From contig JAHFAK010000074.1 in the NCBI GenBank assembly GCA_023250585.1, positions 1-11,771 on the forward strand: DNA of 11,771 bases, in the 5' to 3' direction. This stretch comes from Deltaproteobacteria bacterium (lineage in GTDB: Bacteria; Bdellovibrionota_F; JAHFAK01). The notes below the pieces were generated by a model that worked only from the letters and a program-made list of their open reading frames with translations, was not told the DNA's origin and ran no database searches. Made by a program: the position numbers and the translations under genes. Of the stretch, positions 2,535 through 10,643 are shown one piece after another (the first letter of the stretch is position 1; the number at the start of each line of letters is the position of its first letter).

Positions 2535-4103
2535 ATGAAAAAAATAGTGTTGTCCTTTACGTGTATTCTGTTGTTTAGTACTTGTGGTCCAAAAAAAGAA
2601 ATGAATTATGATGGATCACCAAAGGCACATTCTGTTGCTATTAATACTAAAACCAATTTAGGTCAGGCAATTGAATTATATAAGGTTCAGAATTATCTTC
2701 AGGCATCTGTTTCATTTTATGAGGCGCGAAAAGAAGTAAAAGAAGGCTCTGAGACGTATTTTCGTCTTAATCAATTTATTGCTAATAGTTTATTCCATTT
2801 AGGTTTTCCTCACGCTTCTATTCCTTATTTAACGGAGATTATCAGTAAAGGAAGAACGAGCAATCGCTATCCAATTGCTATCCGAAAGCTTGTGCTGCTT
2901 TCAGAATTATTTCCCAGCGATGAAAAAATTCTTGAAAGTTTAAATAGTATTAAAATTGAAGATTTCCCTTTTATGCTCAATGATCGGCTTGCCATTTTAC
3001 TTGCTCGTGAAGCTCTTTTGAAGAAAGACTTTACTCGTGCAAAAGCGCTTTTAAATCTTATAGGTGAGGCAAGCCCTTACGCGAAGGAAAAAATCTATTA
3101 TGCTGGTCTTGTTAATTACAATGAAGGAAATTATAAAGTTGCGATTGAGTCTTTTAAAAGTTTGGTAGAATTTCATATCAGCGATGAAGAGCCTTATTTG
3201 GCTGATCAGACATATTTATCGCTTGCCCGTGTATTCTATGCACTTGGTAAGTATGAAACCGCAATAGAATTTTATGAAACAATTCCTCATAATTCTATAT
3301 TTTGGCCAGAGTCGCTTTTTGAGCTCTCATGGGCATATTTTCTCGACGGAAATTACAATAGATCTTTAGGGTTGCTCGATGATTTGAACAGCGATTTCTT
3401 TGTGAGTCATGTTTTAAATGAAAGCCTTGTTGTTATGGCTATTATTTATTTTGATCTTTGTATGATTCAAGAAGCTCGTCTTTCAGTAGCTGCATTCCAC
3501 GAAAGATATGATCCATTGATTGATAAAATCTCGCGACTTGATACTACCTATCAAAAAAATCCTAAAGACTTTGGTTTAGTCCTTAAAGAAAAAAAGTATG
3601 ACCAACTTGGATCTGAACTATTATCAGAGCTTTTCTACCAAAATATTGAGATTGAAAATCAGTCTGTACTGCTTAAAAAGCTTGATCGTGAGCTTGAAAT
3701 CTTTGTAGACCGTCCCGAATATTTTAAGAATTCTGGACTTGGCAGTACCGTTTTAGAAAATTTAGAAAGTTCTATTGATACTCAAATTGATAAGCTTGGA
3801 AAAAAGGGCCTTGAGGATTTAGCTGCTCTTAATTCTCGTCTTAAAAATTTGGCAACGCAAGTTGATCTCGTTGAATTTGAAGTACTTAATCTTGAAAAGA
3901 AAGAGCTTAACCTAAGTCTTTCAAATAAAGAATCTGAAAGTAAAATAGAAAGCAATATTACCAAATATGGAAATATTGTAGATAGTGAATTATTTCCTTC
4001 TCATGCTTATTATAGTTGGCCAGATGAAGGAGAAGGTTGGACCGATGAAATTGGGCATAAAGTATTCTTTTTAGCAGAAGGAAATTTATGTCAGCAACAA
4101 TAA
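2535..4103 (+). CDS. gltE: TPR-containing outer-membrane lipoprotein, GltE (AglT)-like
   Basis: 522 residues. The N-terminus MKKIVLSFTCILLFST-C17 reads as a lipoprotein signal with Cys17 lipidated. The lipobox LFSTC is atypical (Thr at -1), and G18-P19 at +2/+3 gives no inner-membrane retention signal, so the outer membrane is the likely site. TPR-type helices are visible at about 43-105 (AIELYKVQNYLQASVSFYEA), 187-215 (YYAGLVNYNEGNYKVAIESFKSL), 223-250 (TYLSLARVFYALGKYETAIEFYETI) and 256-290 (PESLFELSWAYFLDGNYNRSLGLLDDL). The last, followed by a CMIQEARLSVAAFHERYDPL segment, resembles GltE/AglT-type proteins as I remember them. A probable coiled coil spans 400-475, then a tail motif at 493-507 rich in W, E, G and D. 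ATG 2535 has AAGGA 9 nt upstream. The 3' end overlaps the next gene by 16 nt. In Myxococcus the homologue is required for adventurous gliding; the function in this organism is inferred. Confidence 0.62.
   Translation: MKKIVLSFTCILLFSTCGPKKEMNYDGSPKAHSVAINTKTNLGQAIELYKVQNYLQASVSFYEARKEVKEGSETYFRLNQFIANSLFHLGFPHASIPYLTEIISKGRTSNRYPIAIRKLVLLSELFPSDEKILESLNSIKIEDFPFMLNDRLAILLAREALLKKDFTRAKALLNLIGEASPYAKEKIYYAGLVNYNEGNYKVAIESFKSLVEFHISDEEPYLADQTYLSLARVFYALGKYETAIEFYETIPHNSIFWPESLFELSWAYFLDGNYNRSLGLLDDLNSDFFVSHVLNESLVVMAIIYFDLCMIQEARLSVAAFHERYDPLIDKISRLDTTYQKNPKDFGLVLKEKKYDQLGSELLSELFYQNIEIENQSVLLKKLDRELEIFVDRPEYFKNSGLGSTVLENLESSIDTQIDKLGKKGLEDLAALNSRLKNLATQVDLVEFEVLNLEKKELNLSLSNKESESKIESNITKYGNIVDSELFPSHAYYSWPDEGEGWTDEIGHKVFFLAEGNLCQQQ
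4076..4082 (+). promoter_or_regulatory. Shine-Dalgarno that fixes the start of the large TPR gene
   Basis: AGAAGGA lies 5 nt before ATG 4088, inside the end of the upstream gene. It decides the start in favour of 4088 over the ATG at 4106, which belongs to the inserted palindromic element. This matters because it means ribosomes initiate upstream of the element and read through it. Confidence 0.65.
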
Positions 4104-7100
4104 CTATGCGCAACACCATAACTTCGCATACCTTCGTTGCTTCTTGTGTCGTCATTGCGGCGTATTGTTTTATACGCCTCATTCCTCGACTTCGTCGCGC
4201 CTCGGTCTGCTCGTTCTGCTGTTGCGTATCGGGTGCTTTATATATACTCTTATTTTGTTTATTGAGCACAACTCTTTTTGCTGCCCTCCAGAAGCCTTCA
4301 CAGAGCGATATCACCTTGCGTGATTTCTACAATCGCGAAAAAGGCGTTAAAGAAAGAACAGATGCTATTGTTGATACTCAAATTAAAATTCTTACGAAAT
4401 CCTTAAAAAATATTGATGACTCAGAACAAAAAGTAAAATTTATGTTGCGTCTTTCTGAGCTTTATCAAGAGAAAGCACGTAGTATTTATTTCGATGAAGT
4501 AGAGGCATACGAAAAACAGTTTGATATGTATACTAAAGAAGGGAAAAAGGGTCCCGAACCAAAACTTTCACAAGATAAATCAGATGAGTATATAGATAAA
4601 GCTATTGCGCTCTATAACAGTGTTTTAAATGATGAAAGATATAAAAAATATTCCAAAAAAGATTTTGTTCTCTTTCAACTAGGTATAAGTTTTCATGGCC
4701 TTACTAAATCAAAAGAAGCGTATGATAGTTTTCAACGATTAATTAAAGAATTTCCAAAAAGTGAGTACATCGCCGATGCATATCTGTATGTTGGCGAGTA
4801 TTATTTTGATTCGATACAAATTAAAAGCGCCATCGATAGTTATAAAAAAGTTTTGGAATATCGTGAGCCAAAGCTCTATGGATATGCATTATGGAAGCTC
4901 GGCTGGTGCTATTATAACTTAGATCAATTTGATGAAGCGATTGAAACGTTTAAGCAAGTTGTTTCATTTAGTGAACGCCAAGAAAAGATTAGCCAGGAAA
5001 ATAGAATTGTTCTTAAGAAAGAAGCCCTCAATGATTTAATTCTTGTTTTTGCTGATGTCGGCGATATTGATCGTGCTGAAAATTATTTTAGTCAAGTTCA
5101 AGGGAAAGATTATTATTATCGATTGCTCGAAAAACTTGGTGAAACATTTGCGGCAAATGGAGAAAGCGAAAAAGCCATTACTACTTTTTCCAAGCTTTTA
5201 CGTAAAAATCCTCTGTACCGAAGGAATCCAATTATTCATAAAGAACTTATAGGAGTATATGTAAAAGTAAAAAAAGATAGAGAAGTATATGCGGAATTAG
5301 TTAAATATGCTCGTTCATATAGTAAAAGTTCAGAATGGTATGAAGAAAATAGCAAAGACGCTGATGCGATTAAGCTTGCTCGTGTTACGACAGAAAATCT
5401 TTTACGAAAATACGGTTCTGAATATCATAAAACTGCTCAAGAAAAACAAGATAAAGAGCTCTATGCATATTCAGGAAAGATTTATGAATTGTATCTACAG
5501 CATTTTCCTGAAGATAAAAATGCATACGATATAAGCTTCTTTTTAGCGGAAGTATTTTTCTATATTAAAGATTATGAAAAAGCAGATGTTTACTATAAGA
5601 AAGTTATCGATGATAAAACGCATGATCAACATCGTATTGAAGCTGCATATGGTTTAGTACTTGCACGCGAACGCATTTCCTATAGGGATATTGAAGAAGA
5701 ACGCAAATCAAGTATCGTCAAATCTGAAGAGCTCAAAAAGGGAGCTGTAGGAGCTGTAGTTCAGCCGAAAGAAATTCCTGATAAAGAAATGAAATTAATT
5801 GAAGCGTGCGATCTCTATGCAAGTCTTGTAAAAGAATCAACTGAACTTCCCGATATACTATTTAATGCTGCTCGTATTTATTTTAAATATGACAAATTTC
5901 CTGAAGCTCGTCAGAGATTTTTAGCAATTATTAATCGATACCCCAAACACGATATTTCAATACTTTCTGCCAGTCTTGTTTTGGATGCGCTTAGCTATGA
6001 AAAGCTATGGGATGAACTTACGAAACAAGGGAGCGTATTTTTAGCTAAAAAAGATCTTGGAGACCAAAAGTTTAAAAATTATATCAAAGATATTATTGAA
6101 GGAGCTAAGTTTAAACAAATTTTTGAAAAGAAGGACGAAGCCCCAGGAAATTTAGCACAAGCGTTTGAAAATTTTGTTTATAGTCATCCTCGTTCTCGTT
6201 TGGGAGATAAAGCATATTACAATGCGATTATCAATTACGAGAAAACAAGAAATTTTAAAAAGGTTAAAAGTGCATCGCTCACATTTTTAAAATCTTTTCC
6301 AAATTCTGATCTTTACCCAAAGGTGTTGCTCAAGCTGAGTAATTTACGAGAAAATATTGCTGATTTTGAAGGAGCAGCTCAAGGATATGAAGAGCTTTCA
6401 GCCAAGTATCCTGCTCACGAAGAATCAAAAACTACTCTGTATAATGCAATCACGCTGAGGATTTATTTGGGTCAATATGATAAAGCTCTTGCTAATTGCG
6501 ATACTTATATTAAGAAATATCCTCAAGATTCAGAAATTCCTAAGGTCCATTTTTTTATTGCTCAGATATATGTAAAACAAAAAAATACGAAAGCTGCAGT
6601 TGCAAAATACACGGAAATTATCAATACCAATAAGGATAATAGAGTCGCATTATTTCAGGCCTCTGCTGAACTTGCGCTTTTCTATTTAAAAGATGGGAAA
6701 ATAGCGGAAGGCACTGATTATGCTGATAATGCAAAAATGCATTATCAGAAACTTGAGAAAAAAGATCAAAATTCTTTTCTGACTCTTTATGCTGAATTAC
6801 GATTTCAAGTTGTTGGGCTCACGTTTAATGAATTTCAAAACATTAAGCTGAAGCTTCCTCAAAATGTATTAAAAGATCTTTTACGAAAAAAGGCAGCACT
6901 CCTTAACACAATTAAAGATTCATATCTTGAGATTATTAGTTTGGGAGAACCTACGTGGGGAATAGCCGCTCTTTATATGATTGGTTATGTATATGAGGAT
7001 TTTAGTAAAACATTATTTAATGCGCCTATTCCTGCAGGTTTAACTGATGCACAAAAAGAAGAGTATAAACTCTCGCTTGAAGATCAAGCCTTTCCTATTG

Positions 7101-8320
7101 AAGACAAAGCAGTTGAGGCATATGAGAAAGCCATTCAAAAATCTTTGGAACTCAAGGTGTATGAAGTTTGGACTGAATATTCTCTAGAGCATTTAATTAA
7201 GTTTAAACCTGATAAATTTATTCCTATCCCCCATCTTGCCGAATTGCGATCAAATTATATTCCATTATTTGATGTTCGCATAATTGATCCAAAAGGAGCT
7301 CTGCAATATACAATTGATCCGCAATTCAGACAAAGCATCGATATGGGAAAAGAATATCTTTATTCTAAGAAAGATTTTGTAAATGCAGAAAAAATATTTC
7401 GAGAAGTGCTTCGTCGTGATGTTCTCAATGTGACCGCATATCATTATTTGGCATATACAAAATATTTGGCTAATGATTATAAAGCTGCAATTACGCTTTA
7501 TCTTGATATTCTCAAGATGAAGCCAAAAGATATGATAGCAGAGAAGAACATTAGTATTCTCTATTTTAATAGTAATAACTCGAAAGAAGCTCTTATACAT
7601 TATCGAAAAATGTATGACTCAGATAAATCAGAAGAAGTTATCCTTAATTTAGCTGAGCTTTATCGAATAAATCATTACTTTAATGAATCTAAAAAACTAA
7701 TGTGGGATATTCTCATCAATAATCCTGAGAATGTTCGGGCATTTGATATTCTCTGTAGAAATTACATTTTAGAGAATAATTATGAGTTAACTAAACTCGC
7801 GTTTGAAGTTGCATTTCGATCAAATCCAAATACTCCCGAGCTGGAACATTCGTATTCACAAAGTCTTATTGCCTTTAAAAATTATACAGAGGCACATTTT
7901 AATTTGATGGAAGCTTATAAAGCAAAAAAAGTTAAGGAAGTATATAGAGATTTAGGAGTATTTAATTTATATTTCCGTAATTATCGTCAAGCAATCGTTT
8001 ATTTTGAAGAATATGTAGCCACAGGCGTTGATGATAAATATGCACAATTCTTTTTGGGGTTCGCGTATAACGGAGAAAAAGATTACAATAAGAGCATTCA
8101 GATATTCAATACGCTTCTAGCAGCTTATCCAACGGATGATGAGATTACCTATATTCTTGGTACATGGTATTATGAAAATATACGAGATTATGGAAAGGCT
8201 AAAATGCTTTTTGAACGCGTGCAAAAAATAAGTTCAGAAGGCGGGATGTTCTATAACCGTGCAAGTGATTACCTACAAAAAATCGAAATGAAAGAAAAGA
8301 CAAAGGAAGCAAAAAAATGA
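4088..8320 (+). CDS. gltD: Large exported TPR protein, GltD (AgnA)-like, with palindromic element inserted in its signal region
   Basis: 1410 residues. After the short start MSATIT, residues 7-48 are encoded by the palindromic element (4106-4229), in its reverse orientation: a hydrophobic stretch (15-29), an Arg-rich turn (RLIPRLRR) and a Cys-rich piece (VCSFCCCV, 40-47). The native-looking signal core GALYILLFCLLSTTLFA (49-65) follows, with cleavage predicted after A65. The mature protein is helical repeats throughout. TPR motifs are clear at about 190-300 (e.g. ALWKLGWCYYNLDQFDEAIETF, 266-288), around 585-640, in the middle (FFIAQIYVKQKNTKAAVAKY) and in a C-terminal array (YHYLAYTKYLANDYKAAITLY onward). 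The early LRLSELYQEKARSIYFDEVEAYE segment and size fit the large periplasmic TPR component GltD/AgnA of the myxobacterial gliding complex. The start overlaps gltE by 16 nt and the stop overlaps the next ATG by 4 nt, indicating translational coupling. Orthology is judged from order, domain layout and remembered family features. Confidence 0.62.
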   Translation: MSATITMRNTITSHTFVASCVVIAAYCFIRLIPRLRRASVCSFCCCVSGALYILLFCLLSTTLFAALQKPSQSDITLRDFYNREKGVKERTDAIVDTQIKILTKSLKNIDDSEQKVKFMLRLSELYQEKARSIYFDEVEAYEKQFDMYTKEGKKGPEPKLSQDKSDEYIDKAIALYNSVLNDERYKKYSKKDFVLFQLGISFHGLTKSKEAYDSFQRLIKEFPKSEYIADAYLYVGEYYFDSIQIKSAIDSYKKVLEYREPKLYGYALWKLGWCYYNLDQFDEAIETFKQVVSFSERQEKISQENRIVLKKEALNDLILVFADVGDIDRAENYFSQVQGKDYYYRLLEKLGETFAANGESEKAITTFSKLLRKNPLYRRNPIIHKELIGVYVKVKKDREVYAELVKYARSYSKSSEWYEENSKDADAIKLARVTTENLLRKYGSEYHKTAQEKQDKELYAYSGKIYELYLQHFPEDKNAYDISFFLAEVFFYIKDYEKADVYYKKVIDDKTHDQHRIEAAYGLVLARERISYRDIEEERKSSIVKSEELKKGAVGAVVQPKEIPDKEMKLIEACDLYASLVKESTELPDILFNAARIYFKYDKFPEARQRFLAIINRYPKHDISILSASLVLDALSYEKLWDELTKQGSVFLAKKDLGDQKFKNYIKDIIEGAKFKQIFEKKDEAPGNLAQAFENFVYSHPRSRLGDKAYYNAIINYEKTRNFKKVKSASLTFLKSFPNSDLYPKVLLKLSNLRENIADFEGAAQGYEELSAKYPAHEESKTTLYNAITLRIYLGQYDKALANCDTYIKKYPQDSEIPKVHFFIAQIYVKQKNTKAAVAKYTEIINTNKDNRVALFQASAELALFYLKDGKIAEGTDYADNAKMHYQKLEKKDQNSFLTLYAELRFQVVGLTFNEFQNIKLKLPQNVLKDLLRKKAALLNTIKDSYLEIISLGEPTWGIAALYMIGYVYEDFSKTLFNAPIPAGLTDAQKEEYKLSLEDQAFPIEDKAVEAYEKAIQKSLELKVYEVWTEYSLEHLIKFKPDKFIPIPHLAELRSNYIPLFDVRIIDPKGALQYTIDPQFRQSIDMGKEYLYSKKDFVNAEKIFREVLRRDVLNVTAYHYLAYTKYLANDYKAAITLYLDILKMKPKDMIAEKNISILYFNSNNSKEALIHYRKMYDSDKSEEVILNLAELYRINHYFNESKKLMWDILINNPENVRAFDILCRNYILENNYELTKLAFEVAFRSNPNTPELEHSYSQSLIAFKNYTEAHFNLMEAYKAKKVKEVYRDLGVFNLYFRNYRQAIVYFEEYVATGVDDKYAQFFLGFAYNGEKDYNKSIQIFNTLLAAYPTDDEITYILGTWYYENIRDYGKAKMLFERVQKISSEGGMFYNRASDYLQKIEMKEKTKEAKK
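4106..4229 (-). repeat. Palindromic inserted element, copy A (reverse orientation), in frame in the gltD-like gene
   Basis: 124 bp, the reverse-complement relative of copy B (8360-8486): 101 of 116 positions identical (87%) outside the central loop, with no gaps in either arm. Ends are ATGCGCAACA (4106-4115) and TGTTGCGTAT (4220-4229), inverted repeats matching 14 of 17 over the first 17 bp. The centre is a 7-bp hairpin, GGCGTAT/ATACGCC, with a 6-nt loop when read on the minus strand. A mini-hairpin CGAC-GAA-GTCG lies in one arm. Hand-counted GC is 63/124 (51%), well above the surroundings. It starts 2 nt after the stop codon of the upstream gene. No obvious longer target-site duplication is visible. 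It contributes codons 7-48 of the host gene. Confidence 0.9.
5741..5758 (+). repeat. Tandem 9-bp duplication in the large TPR gene
   Basis: GGAGCTGTA occurs twice in succession and encodes GAVGAV (residues 552-557) in a linker between helical repeats. It is in frame and looks like a simple slippage duplication in a tolerant loop. No function is implied. Confidence 0.8.
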
Positions 8321-8766
8321 AAAAAATTATTATAAACATAATGACATATATATTTGAACATACACAACGCAAGAACGAGCAGACAAAGGCACGACGAAGT
8401 CGAGGAATGAGGCGTACTTTTTTTAGTTACGCCGCAATGACGAGACGAGGAGTAACGAATGTATGCGAAGTTATGGCGTTGTGTATAGCATTGTTTTTTG
8501 TAACAACATCTGCTATCCTGGCAGAAACCAAAACAGATAAAGATAATGAGCCTCCGCCCATTATCAAAAAAGAAAAAGTGCAAGTCATAAAATACAGGAA
8601 AAAGACACGTATTGATTTTACTGAACTGACAGTTCAAGGAGATCTAAAGAGACCCTCAGGATTTCTTATTCTTAAAAGAAAAGGAATTGAGTTTTCTGGA
8701 CTTATTAATTTGCGAAAAGATTTTGATGATAAGTTATATGATTCCGTTAATTTTATAGGTAAGTAA
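8317..8766 (+). CDS. gltF: Small exported GltF-like protein, with palindromic element inserted in its signal region
   Basis: 149 residues. The ATG overlaps the preceding TGA (ATGA, 8317-8320) and has AAGGA 9 nt upstream. Residues 1-14 (MKKIIINIMTYIFE) look like the front of a signal peptide. Residues 15-57 come from palindromic element copy B and are basic and polar (four consecutive-type Arg/Lys clusters such as KARRSRGMRR). Residues 58-69 (ALFFVTTSAILA) supply a signal-peptide core with cleavage before E70. The mature part is only about 80 residues: a charged, proline-containing lead, then KKTRIDFTELTVQGDLKRPS, GFLILKRKGIEFSGLINLRKDF and a short tail. This IDF-x-x-L/V-x-x-x-G-x-L-K-x-P ... 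RK ... F-x-x-L-I-x-L-R arrangement agrees with my memory of GltF-type proteins, which occupy the same place between gltD and gltG. Internal ATGs at 8437 and 8473 are in frame and could give shorter signal peptides. Family call is moderate. Confidence 0.55.
   Translation: MKKIIINIMTYIFEHTQRKNEQTKARRSRGMRRTFFSYAAMTRRGVTNVCEVMALCIALFFVTTSAILAETKTDKDNEPPPIIKKEKVQVIKYRKKTRIDFTELTVQGDLKRPSGFLILKRKGIEFSGLINLRKDFDDKLYDSVNFIGK
8360..8486 (+). repeat. Palindromic inserted element, copy B (forward orientation), in frame in the gltF-like gene
   Basis: 127 bp with perfect 11-bp terminal inverted repeats, ATACACAACGC (8360-8370) and GCGTTGTGTAT (8476-8486), extending to 15 of 17. The centre is GGCGTA/TACGCC (8411-8416 and 8428-8433) around an 11-nt T-rich loop. 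The arms contain the same CGAC-GAA-GTCG mini-hairpin as copy A. It is the inverted counterpart of 4106-4229, and its only length difference is 3 nt, in the loop. Hand-counted GC is 59/127 (46%). It contributes codons 15-57 of the host gene, read on the strand opposite to that read in copy A. No transposase gene is nearby, so it would be non-autonomous. Confidence 0.9.
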
Positions 8767-8768
8767 CC

Positions 8769-10643
8769 GTGAAAGAAATGAATACAATACAAGTCCTTCC
8801 CGTTACCTGCAAAGTTTATTATAAAGGTAAATTTTTGCGTCGAATAGCATTTCAGCAGCAGAGTATTCTGATCGGTCGAGTTTTGTCGGCAGACTTACAA
8901 CTCGAAGATGAGAAAGTGTCTCGAATACATTCAGTCATTGAGATTATTAATGGTGGCAAAGATGTATTGCTATTTGATTTGGGAAGTTCAAATGGAACCC
9001 AAGTAAACGGAACGCTCACCAAAGAAAAACAACTTGTTTCCGGAGATGTTATTTTGATAGGTGATAGCTCTATTGTTGTAAGCCTTGAACAACGTCCTGT
9101 TTCGATTGCGCTCGAAGAAGTACCTGTTCCTATTACCGATTATAATAAAGAAGCAGCTGAAGGGGTATTAATGCTGCATGAAGCTTCTTACAAAAAAGGC
9201 GCTGCAAGCCCTGAAGCTGTGAAAGAAACAACGCAATCAAAAGACGTAGAAGAGATCATAGAAGATAAGAACAAAAAGACAATTCCTGAAGTTCTTGAAA
9301 TGACAATGTTCTGGTATGACAATATTGTCGATATTCGTCATTTCGATAAACCAGAACAAATTACTATTGGTAATTCAACGAAAAACCACTTTAATTTTTA
9401 TTCTGATAGTATTCCGGAAAATTTTGCTTTAGTTCGTTATCGAAGTAATAAATATTTTATCTACTTTAATAAAAAAATTACGGGTGAAATACGCTATGGA
9501 CGGCATGTGAGATCTTTGAATGAATTTACCGGGATGAAGCAATCACGCCAAGTTTCTATCGATGGCGAAGTTTATACGGAACTCGAATTAATTCATGATA
9601 TGCAGTGTGTTGTTGAACTGAGCAAGATTTCCTTCTTCTTACAATTTGTTTACCCAGCCAAAAAATACCATATAAGTTTTTGGAAGACCATTGATAAGTT
9701 TTTCACGTTTATTCTCTTTATGGTTGCATTGGCACAATTTTTATTTTTTGCATATGCTCCTGTTCAATCCGAGGAAATAGATATAGACACTGCTTTTAAA
9801 TCACCAAATCGATTCACAAAGCTTGTCATTCTTTCTCCTGATATGCTTCGAGGAACACGCGGTTCGATTGGAGGCTCATCAGACGAAAAAGGAAAATTGC
9901 CCGGACAAGAAGGAACTAAAGGGGGTGGAACTCCTACAGGAAAAGGAACAGGAGGACAAGGAAAAACTAAAGCTCATGCTACTCCAAAATCTGGTGGACT
10001 CCTAGGCCTCAATGCAATCATTACTGAATTAGGTAAACAAGGAAAGTATGCTGATATTTTTGGTAAGAGTGGTTTAGGAAAAGGCTTTGAAGAAGCTGCT
10101 GAGGGATTACAAACAGGCTCTCCAGGCAAAGGTTTAGGTAAATCTGGATTCGGTGGAGGGACAGGTTCTGGAGGATTCGGTACCAAAGGTAGCGGTCTTG
10201 GCGGTGGTGGCGAAGTTGTTGGAATCGGCAATTTAGGCTCGGGGGGTGCATTTGGTGAACCTCCTGGTTCCGGTAAAAAAGATGTAGGAAAAATTAAAGT
10301 TAAATCTCAATCAGTCATTACTATTAGTGAAGAAGAAACGATTATTATTGGATCTCTTACCCGTGAAGAAATTGATAGAGTTGTTAAGCGTAATATTGAG
10401 CAACTCGAATACTGTTATGATGTTCAACTTATGAAAGAACCAAACCTCAATGGAAAAATTGAAATCACTTGGGTCATTGAAGCTAATGGTTTTGTCCAAA
10501 GCGCATACATTAAAACTACGACTCTCCAAAGTCCTGCTGGAGAAGAATGTATGCTTCGCAGAATTCAGAGGTGGCGTTTCCCGCGTCCCCGAGGTGGAGG
10601 TATTGTTGAAGTTAATTATCCATTCCTTTTCAACGCCTTATAA
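8769..10643 (+). CDS. gltG: Inner-membrane FHA-TM-TonB-like-tail protein, GltG (PglI)-like
   Basis: 624 residues. An FHA domain occupies about 8-105, with the conserved GR (36-37), SRIHS (51-55) and LGSSNGTQVN (71-80) phosphothreonine-binding loops intact. A charged linker leads to a second beta-rich, FHA-like domain lacking those motifs (about 180-297). One membrane helix follows (FFTFILFMVALAQFLFFAYAP, 311-331), then a glycine-rich periplasmic linker (about 361-505) and a C-terminal TonB/AgmX-PglI-type domain (about 525-622) with EQLEYCYDVQL, LNGKIEITWVI, a second Cys (C594) and RWRFPRPRGGGIVEVNYPF. The Cys pair C549/C594 is typical of this tail. The FHA head faces the cytoplasm and the tail the periplasm or outer membrane. 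In Myxococcus this protein is part of the Agl-Glt gliding motor. GTG 8769, with AGGT 8 nt upstream and only 2 nt after the previous stop, is favoured; ATG 8778 (codon 4) is an alternative start. Confidence 0.78.
   Translation: MKEMNTIQVLPVTCKVYYKGKFLRRIAFQQQSILIGRVLSADLQLEDEKVSRIHSVIEIINGGKDVLLFDLGSSNGTQVNGTLTKEKQLVSGDVILIGDSSIVVSLEQRPVSIALEEVPVPITDYNKEAAEGVLMLHEASYKKGAASPEAVKETTQSKDVEEIIEDKNKKTIPEVLEMTMFWYDNIVDIRHFDKPEQITIGNSTKNHFNFYSDSIPENFALVRYRSNKYFIYFNKKITGEIRYGRHVRSLNEFTGMKQSRQVSIDGEVYTELELIHDMQCVVELSKISFFLQFVYPAKKYHISFWKTIDKFFTFILFMVALAQFLFFAYAPVQSEEIDIDTAFKSPNRFTKLVILSPDMLRGTRGSIGGSSDEKGKLPGQEGTKGGGTPTGKGTGGQGKTKAHATPKSGGLLGLNAIITELGKQGKYADIFGKSGLGKGFEEAAEGLQTGSPGKGLGKSGFGGGTGSGGFGTKGSGLGGGGEVVGIGNLGSGGAFGEPPGSGKKDVGKIKVKSQSVITISEEETIIIGSLTREEIDRVVKRNIEQLEYCYDVQLMKEPNLNGKIEITWVIEANGFVQSAYIKTTTLQSPAGEECMLRRIQRWRFPRPRGGGIVEVNYPFLFNAL

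Follow-up and report, generated by a model that had tools for sequence, protein, structure and literature searches.

The two palindromic segments of this DNA are in all likelihood (probability about 0.82) copies of one non-autonomous, TA-terminated mobile element, which is MITE-like and fused in frame with the genes that carry it. The element forms a dispersed multi-copy family, orthologous sites with and without it occur, and an open reading frame runs through it in six genes. The window, i.e. the whole stretch of 11,771 nt that was analysed, is contig C148 of a metagenome-assembled genome (MAG) of 2.24 Mb in 164 contigs (G000, the host genome).

A repeat search of the window detected the inverted pair as two ungapped blocks that far exceed every other inverted pair in it: 61 nt with 87% complementarity (4104-4164/8428-8488) and 57 nt with 88% (4173-4229/8360-8416). 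Each copy folds as one long imperfect hairpin with a central GGCGTA/TACGCC stem, with a stability of z ~ -6.3 against dinucleotide shuffles, none of which was equally stable. The initial annotation had described two inverted copies of ~87% identity with this central hairpin, and both descriptions hold. The hairpin core of copy A lies at 4104-4229 on the minus strand (139.8 bits with the covariance model R1), and that of copy B at 8360-8488 on the plus strand (149.3 bits). Their GC contents are 51% and 47%, and they differ at ~13% of the positions. The previously given extent of ~125 bp fits the hairpin of ~126 nt, whereas a left tail of ~27 nt had been overlooked, and the full element measures ~152 nt. 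Flank alignment placed this tail at 8333-8359 (plus strand, TAAACATAATGACATATATATTTGAAC) in copy B, which including the tail spans about 8333-8487. In copy A, a diverged tail lies on the right side of the copy as seen in the window, at about 4230-4261 (minus strand, outer end uncertain).

Searching the host genome with copy B revealed ~20 full-length copies and many fragments or degenerate ones. A covariance model built from 19 copies found 20 places of at least 128 bits, followed by a falling series of degenerate matches. Several copies are situated at contig ends, so the true copy number is probably higher. Most copies are intergenic and almost fill the space between the genes, as judged from heuristic gene calls around them. 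With at least 20 dispersed full-length copies, the expectation of a mobile family was borne out; a restriction to this operon was not supported. Flank alignment of many copies showed a conserved left tail of 27 nt (TATACACAACGACATAAATAATTGCG). From TATA to TATA the full element has ~152 nt; copies without the tail, ~126 nt long, form a second class. Most copies of several genomes have the ends TATACA .. TGTATA, that is, inverted-repeat ends with TA, and the build of tail plus hairpin is also seen in other genomes. All of this describes a dispersed element of less than 200 bp (126-152 nt) without a protein of its own. One remnant (L161, C22:31624) has kept the left tail and the first arm end, with the hairpin deleted.

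The hairpin is maintained by compensatory changes. Among 54 copies, 22 of the 33 pairs had double changes, 96.7% of the cells were paired (18-39% in slid controls) and 192 cells were double-changed, compared with 56 in shuffles; the alignment was fitted to the model, which biases these counts in its favour. The terminal arms differ freely in sequence from copy to copy (TACACAACG, TACAGAGCG, TACCCAACATC), yet remain complementary. The sense strand folds better than the opposite strand, with RNA and DNA parameters alike. This is well matched by the internal loops, most of which set G.A against G.A in a consensus read by eye. We infer that the element functions as the folded hairpin.

Copy A lies near the start of a gene for a 1410-aa protein (4088-8320, plus strand), whose ATG at 4088 is preceded by AGAAGGA and which overlaps the stop codon, at 4101-4103, of the gene before it. 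Copy B lies in the next gene, coding for a 149-aa exported protein (8317-8766, plus strand), whose ATG overlaps the preceding stop (ATGA). Here, the element sits between MKKII and the hydrophobic part of the signal peptide. Both reading frames are stop-free through the element, in line with the initial annotation, which had described the genes as undisrupted. Its names gltD and gltF, from a Glt-like operon, were not supported: Pfam detected TPR repeats alone in the 1410-aa protein and no family in the 149-aa protein.

Six copies of the host genome are in frame with genes: A, B and those on contigs C152, C43, C96 (purE) and C106. Five of them begin within ~5-13 codons of a start codon, and each of these five starts has a Shine-Dalgarno-like site or else touches or overlaps the stop codon of the gene before it. 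In purE, the Pfam domain AIRC begins directly after the element. The frames used are sense +0 (B, C43), sense +1 (C152, C96, C106) and antisense 0 (A), the three with the fewest stops in intergenic copies. Including the tail, the required frame is open in 2/13, 4/13 and 11/13 intergenic copies for the three frames, a comparison that is partly circular because copies are called in-gene by their open frame. Judging from these reading frames, the ribosome would really read through the element. Three different frames are in use; therefore, the extra residues are more probably tolerated than selected for.

In four host genes, removal of the element restores a normal start. Excision with one TA kept yields MKKIIIALFFVTTSAILA / MKKIIIALFFVTTSAILAETK for copy B (net insertion 153 nt), MKKKYSIILLLFSLPQFVGA for C152 (150 nt) and MKHIILFCILVLILVGC, with a lipobox, for C43 (150 nt); in purE, a 150-nt excision yields MLKQTINIVFGSASDEW. 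No clean simple excision was found for copy A, and the C106 insert occupies a linker of variable length between a propeller part and the C-terminal part. These reconstructions indicate, as distinct from prove, that the element enters at a TA, which is duplicated, and lengthens the gene by a net 150 or 153 nt; they were derived from the occupied sites of three or four host genes.

Counterparts lacking the element were also found. The orthologue of the copy-B gene in G001, a genome of the host's phylum, has at the protein level an ordinary, uninterrupted signal peptide without the insert. At the junction of nusG and rplK, the element is present in G041 and absent in its sisters G042, G045, G047 and G048, where the spacing between the aligned parts is 5 nt (G047, G048) or an element-free 55-63 nt (G042, G045). 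Both an insert shared by all orthologues and a lack of further copies, either of which would have spoken against the initial annotation, are excluded for copy B and the family. The same junction in G046 (L170) holds an unrelated repeat with CCCTTGACCCC motifs; this joint has therefore been hit twice. The copy-B gene and the following FHA-domain gene (8317-10643 in the window) are also adjacent in G001 (L128:7580-9561), and therefore this pair is conserved in the class.

An exact-pattern scan covered 84,980 species genomes. Full-length copies occur in unrelated MAGs, deposited as a Hainich groundwater bacterium, Nitrospirae CG2-30-53-67, Deltaproteobacteria GWA2_55_10 and a Nitrospinota bacterium, each with 11 to 51 model matches, many of them degenerate. 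Matches were found in 6 of the 8 genomes examined from the phylum of the Hainich genome, and in 15 of 297 from that of GWA2_55_10, about seven of which have full-length copies. No copy was found in G001, the one other genome of the host's own phylum that was searched. Phyla are named here as by the depositors or by the grouping of the search collection, and at least three distinct groupings are represented. Copies from one genome mostly group together, the pattern to be expected from local bursts, and the best identity between the host genome and another phylum is 84%. Such identity across phyla implies horizontal spread or strong constraint. The plasmid, phage and viral-contig collections contained no match to the element, and one further hit of the pattern scan (L065) was a chance match that the covariance model did not recover.

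Several other repeats and RNAs were observed. Several copies, at L165 (C115:894-1128), L164 (C157), L166 (C70) and L083 (C113:52157), carry within their right arm a second palindromic element (ends GTCCTACTACG / GAAGCAGGATC), nested at the same position each time. It is flanked by a direct repeat of ~8 bp (CGCAGCGA or TCGTTGCG), as if by an 8-bp target duplication. Another palindromic family of ~128 nt (CTGTCATTGCGA .. TCGCAATGACAG) is present in the host genome (L094:1219-1346, L191:435-561), near an IS200-type tnpA gene and near an IS630-type gene. At L076:1375-1506 (C19), a sub-threshold match to the cobalamin (AdoCbl) riboswitch directly adjoins a copy of the present element, and the flanks of this copy (TTGATCGTTA / TAACGATCAA) lengthen the palindrome, as if it had been inserted in the centre of a hairpin. 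The Nitrospinota MAG has an RNA resembling the cspA thermoregulator (L064:883-1213) that scores below the gathering threshold (61/78 bits, E 3e-13). Two more hairpins, with weak model matches of 38-40 bits, flank an apparent ribosomal RNA gene sequence at L167 (C163:9819-10093) and are perhaps processing stems or a sister family. G041 and G043 have dozens of matches of 40-60 bits and ~115-140 nt, which suggests one sister family or several, with mainly the middle of the hairpin in common.

Palindromic elements in frame with genes are known from Rickettsia and Wolbachia, with weaker precedents in enterobacteria and Neisseria. Bacterial MITEs of similar size have TA ends and terminal inverted repeats, can be fused in frame, and mostly lack a known parent insertion sequence (PMC2229807); signal-peptide fusions are known for enterobacterial repeats (PMC2759123). 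Classification as a non-autonomous, MITE-like family agrees with the dispersed copies and empty sites. The further label RPE-like is apt for behaviour only. Like the present element, the Rickettsia RPEs and their Wolbachia counterparts are hairpins of ~150 bp, in frame in unrelated genes, without a known transposase (PMC10969869, PMC2229807). The present fusions, however, cluster behind start codons, and the core pattern had no match in any Rickettsia or Wolbachia genome of the exact-pattern scan, a separation that holds at the level of the pattern. Correia elements (NEMIS) are also short elements with terminal inverted repeats and TA ends, and a ~107-bp class is fused in frame with genes, whereas their host range differs and their long form has stops in all frames (PMC2229807); this comparison is by description only. 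REP and REPIN sequences with their RAYT (Y1) enzymes are likewise high-copy imperfect hairpins, and Y1 genes occur in 6 of 7 element-bearing genomes. REPs, though, are 20-40 bp long (PMC3733652), and no Y1 gene is flanked by the present element.

The closest known system in size and build is ERIC (IRU, RU-1), an imperfect palindrome of ~127 bp with TA ends, mostly intergenic and with in-frame gene fusions (PMC2229807, PMC2759123). The present hosts, by contrast, are uncultured bacteria of other phyla, and ERIC occurs in hundreds of plasmid records while the element occurs in none of the plasmids searched. That it is a distant ERIC homologue, which would extend ERIC far beyond enterobacteria and vibrios, is suggested but in our view unlikely. 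The lengths (127 and 126 nt), the TA ends and a left tail with TAAATAATT agree, and several ERIC copies align with the model end to end in the same orientation, at best with 16 bits (E 0.012). Scores in this unfiltered search were nevertheless weak (5-16 bits), an unrelated hairpin in the same set reached 11 bits, and plain local alignment was no better than for shuffles.

No parent insertion sequence with the same ends was found near genes of the Y1 or IS630 type, the two transposase families searched. A linked Y1 transposase was rejected as a candidate, with no element match around 17 Y1 loci. IS630-type genes occur in only 2 of the 7 genomes, do not adjoin a copy and do not share its ends. 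On C88, the region between inverted solo ends, considered as an autonomous transposon, contains ordinary genes and remnants only.

Three other explanations bear on how the in-frame copies, the hairpin and the inverted pair are read. Instead of being read through, the genes may begin translation within or behind the element, their upstream start codons being relics. ATG codons and a GAGGAG do occur in the element, a stable hairpin this early in a coding region should impede ribosomes, and the nearest gene start of several other copies lies in the element or just behind it. Against this, all six genes keep the frame they need open from one end of the insert to the other, although intergenic copies have these frames open in only 2, 4 and 11 of 13 cases; copy B lacks a good ribosome-binding site before its last in-frame ATG, and the native starts keep their Shine-Dalgarno sites and ATGA overlaps. 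Relic starts seem to us rather improbable.

The strong covariation, the better folding of the sense strand and the position of copies against gene ends and starts, with one adjoining the cobalamin riboswitch match, would also suit an RNA that serves the host in processing, stability or as a stop signal between operon genes, with mobility secondary. Yet the copies lie in both orientations relative to the neighbouring genes, have no consistent neighbour gene and match no Rfam family, and there are many per genome with local bursts; we regard a primarily functional RNA as quite improbable. NEMIS and ERIC are mobile elements that can also have such effects, and because they combine both, the functional and the mobile reading are not exclusive. 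In a MAG of 164 contigs, where repeats can mislead assembly, the inverted pair could be suspected of being an artefact, or else a plain duplication of a gene within the operon. Such an origin is hardly conceivable here: the divergence between A and B, the presence of the element at no fewer than 18 other places in unrelated contexts and in independent MAGs, and the different frames in which host genes read it all argue against it, and the dispersed copies refute it.

For the mobile element, the following course would account for the data. It would insert at a TA dinucleotide and duplicate it, probably catalysed in trans by a separate enzyme, and would settle in the short stretch between one gene and the next, where an insert is tolerated. 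In operons whose genes overlap or abut (ATGA type), this stretch would be the opening codons of the second gene. A copy would survive at such a joint only if its frame is open and its net length a multiple of three, so that the protein would acquire ~50 residues in front of the signal peptide or conserved domain, the net gain being 150 nt with the standard full-length form and 153 nt with copy B. A bolder version is speculative and, taken whole, rather unlikely: one hairpin element, perhaps related to ERIC through an ancient origin, would cross phyla and specialise in gene joints. Its commonest full-length form would add exactly 50 codons behind starts in any of three open frames, repeatedly extending signal peptides and even purE, translated and tolerated, and its strand-specific G.A-loop hairpin would be the substrate of a putative single-strand transposition enzyme.

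The same in-frame behaviour as in the Rickettsia and Wolbachia elements is now seen in uncultured bacteria of several phyla. Each single trait of the family has a precedent; it stands out by its unusually wide host range and its marked N-terminal habit. A suggested reason for this habit is that, in packed operons, the first codons are the sole free space at a joint. For annotation, it is a warning that some proteins begin with ~50 transposon-derived residues.
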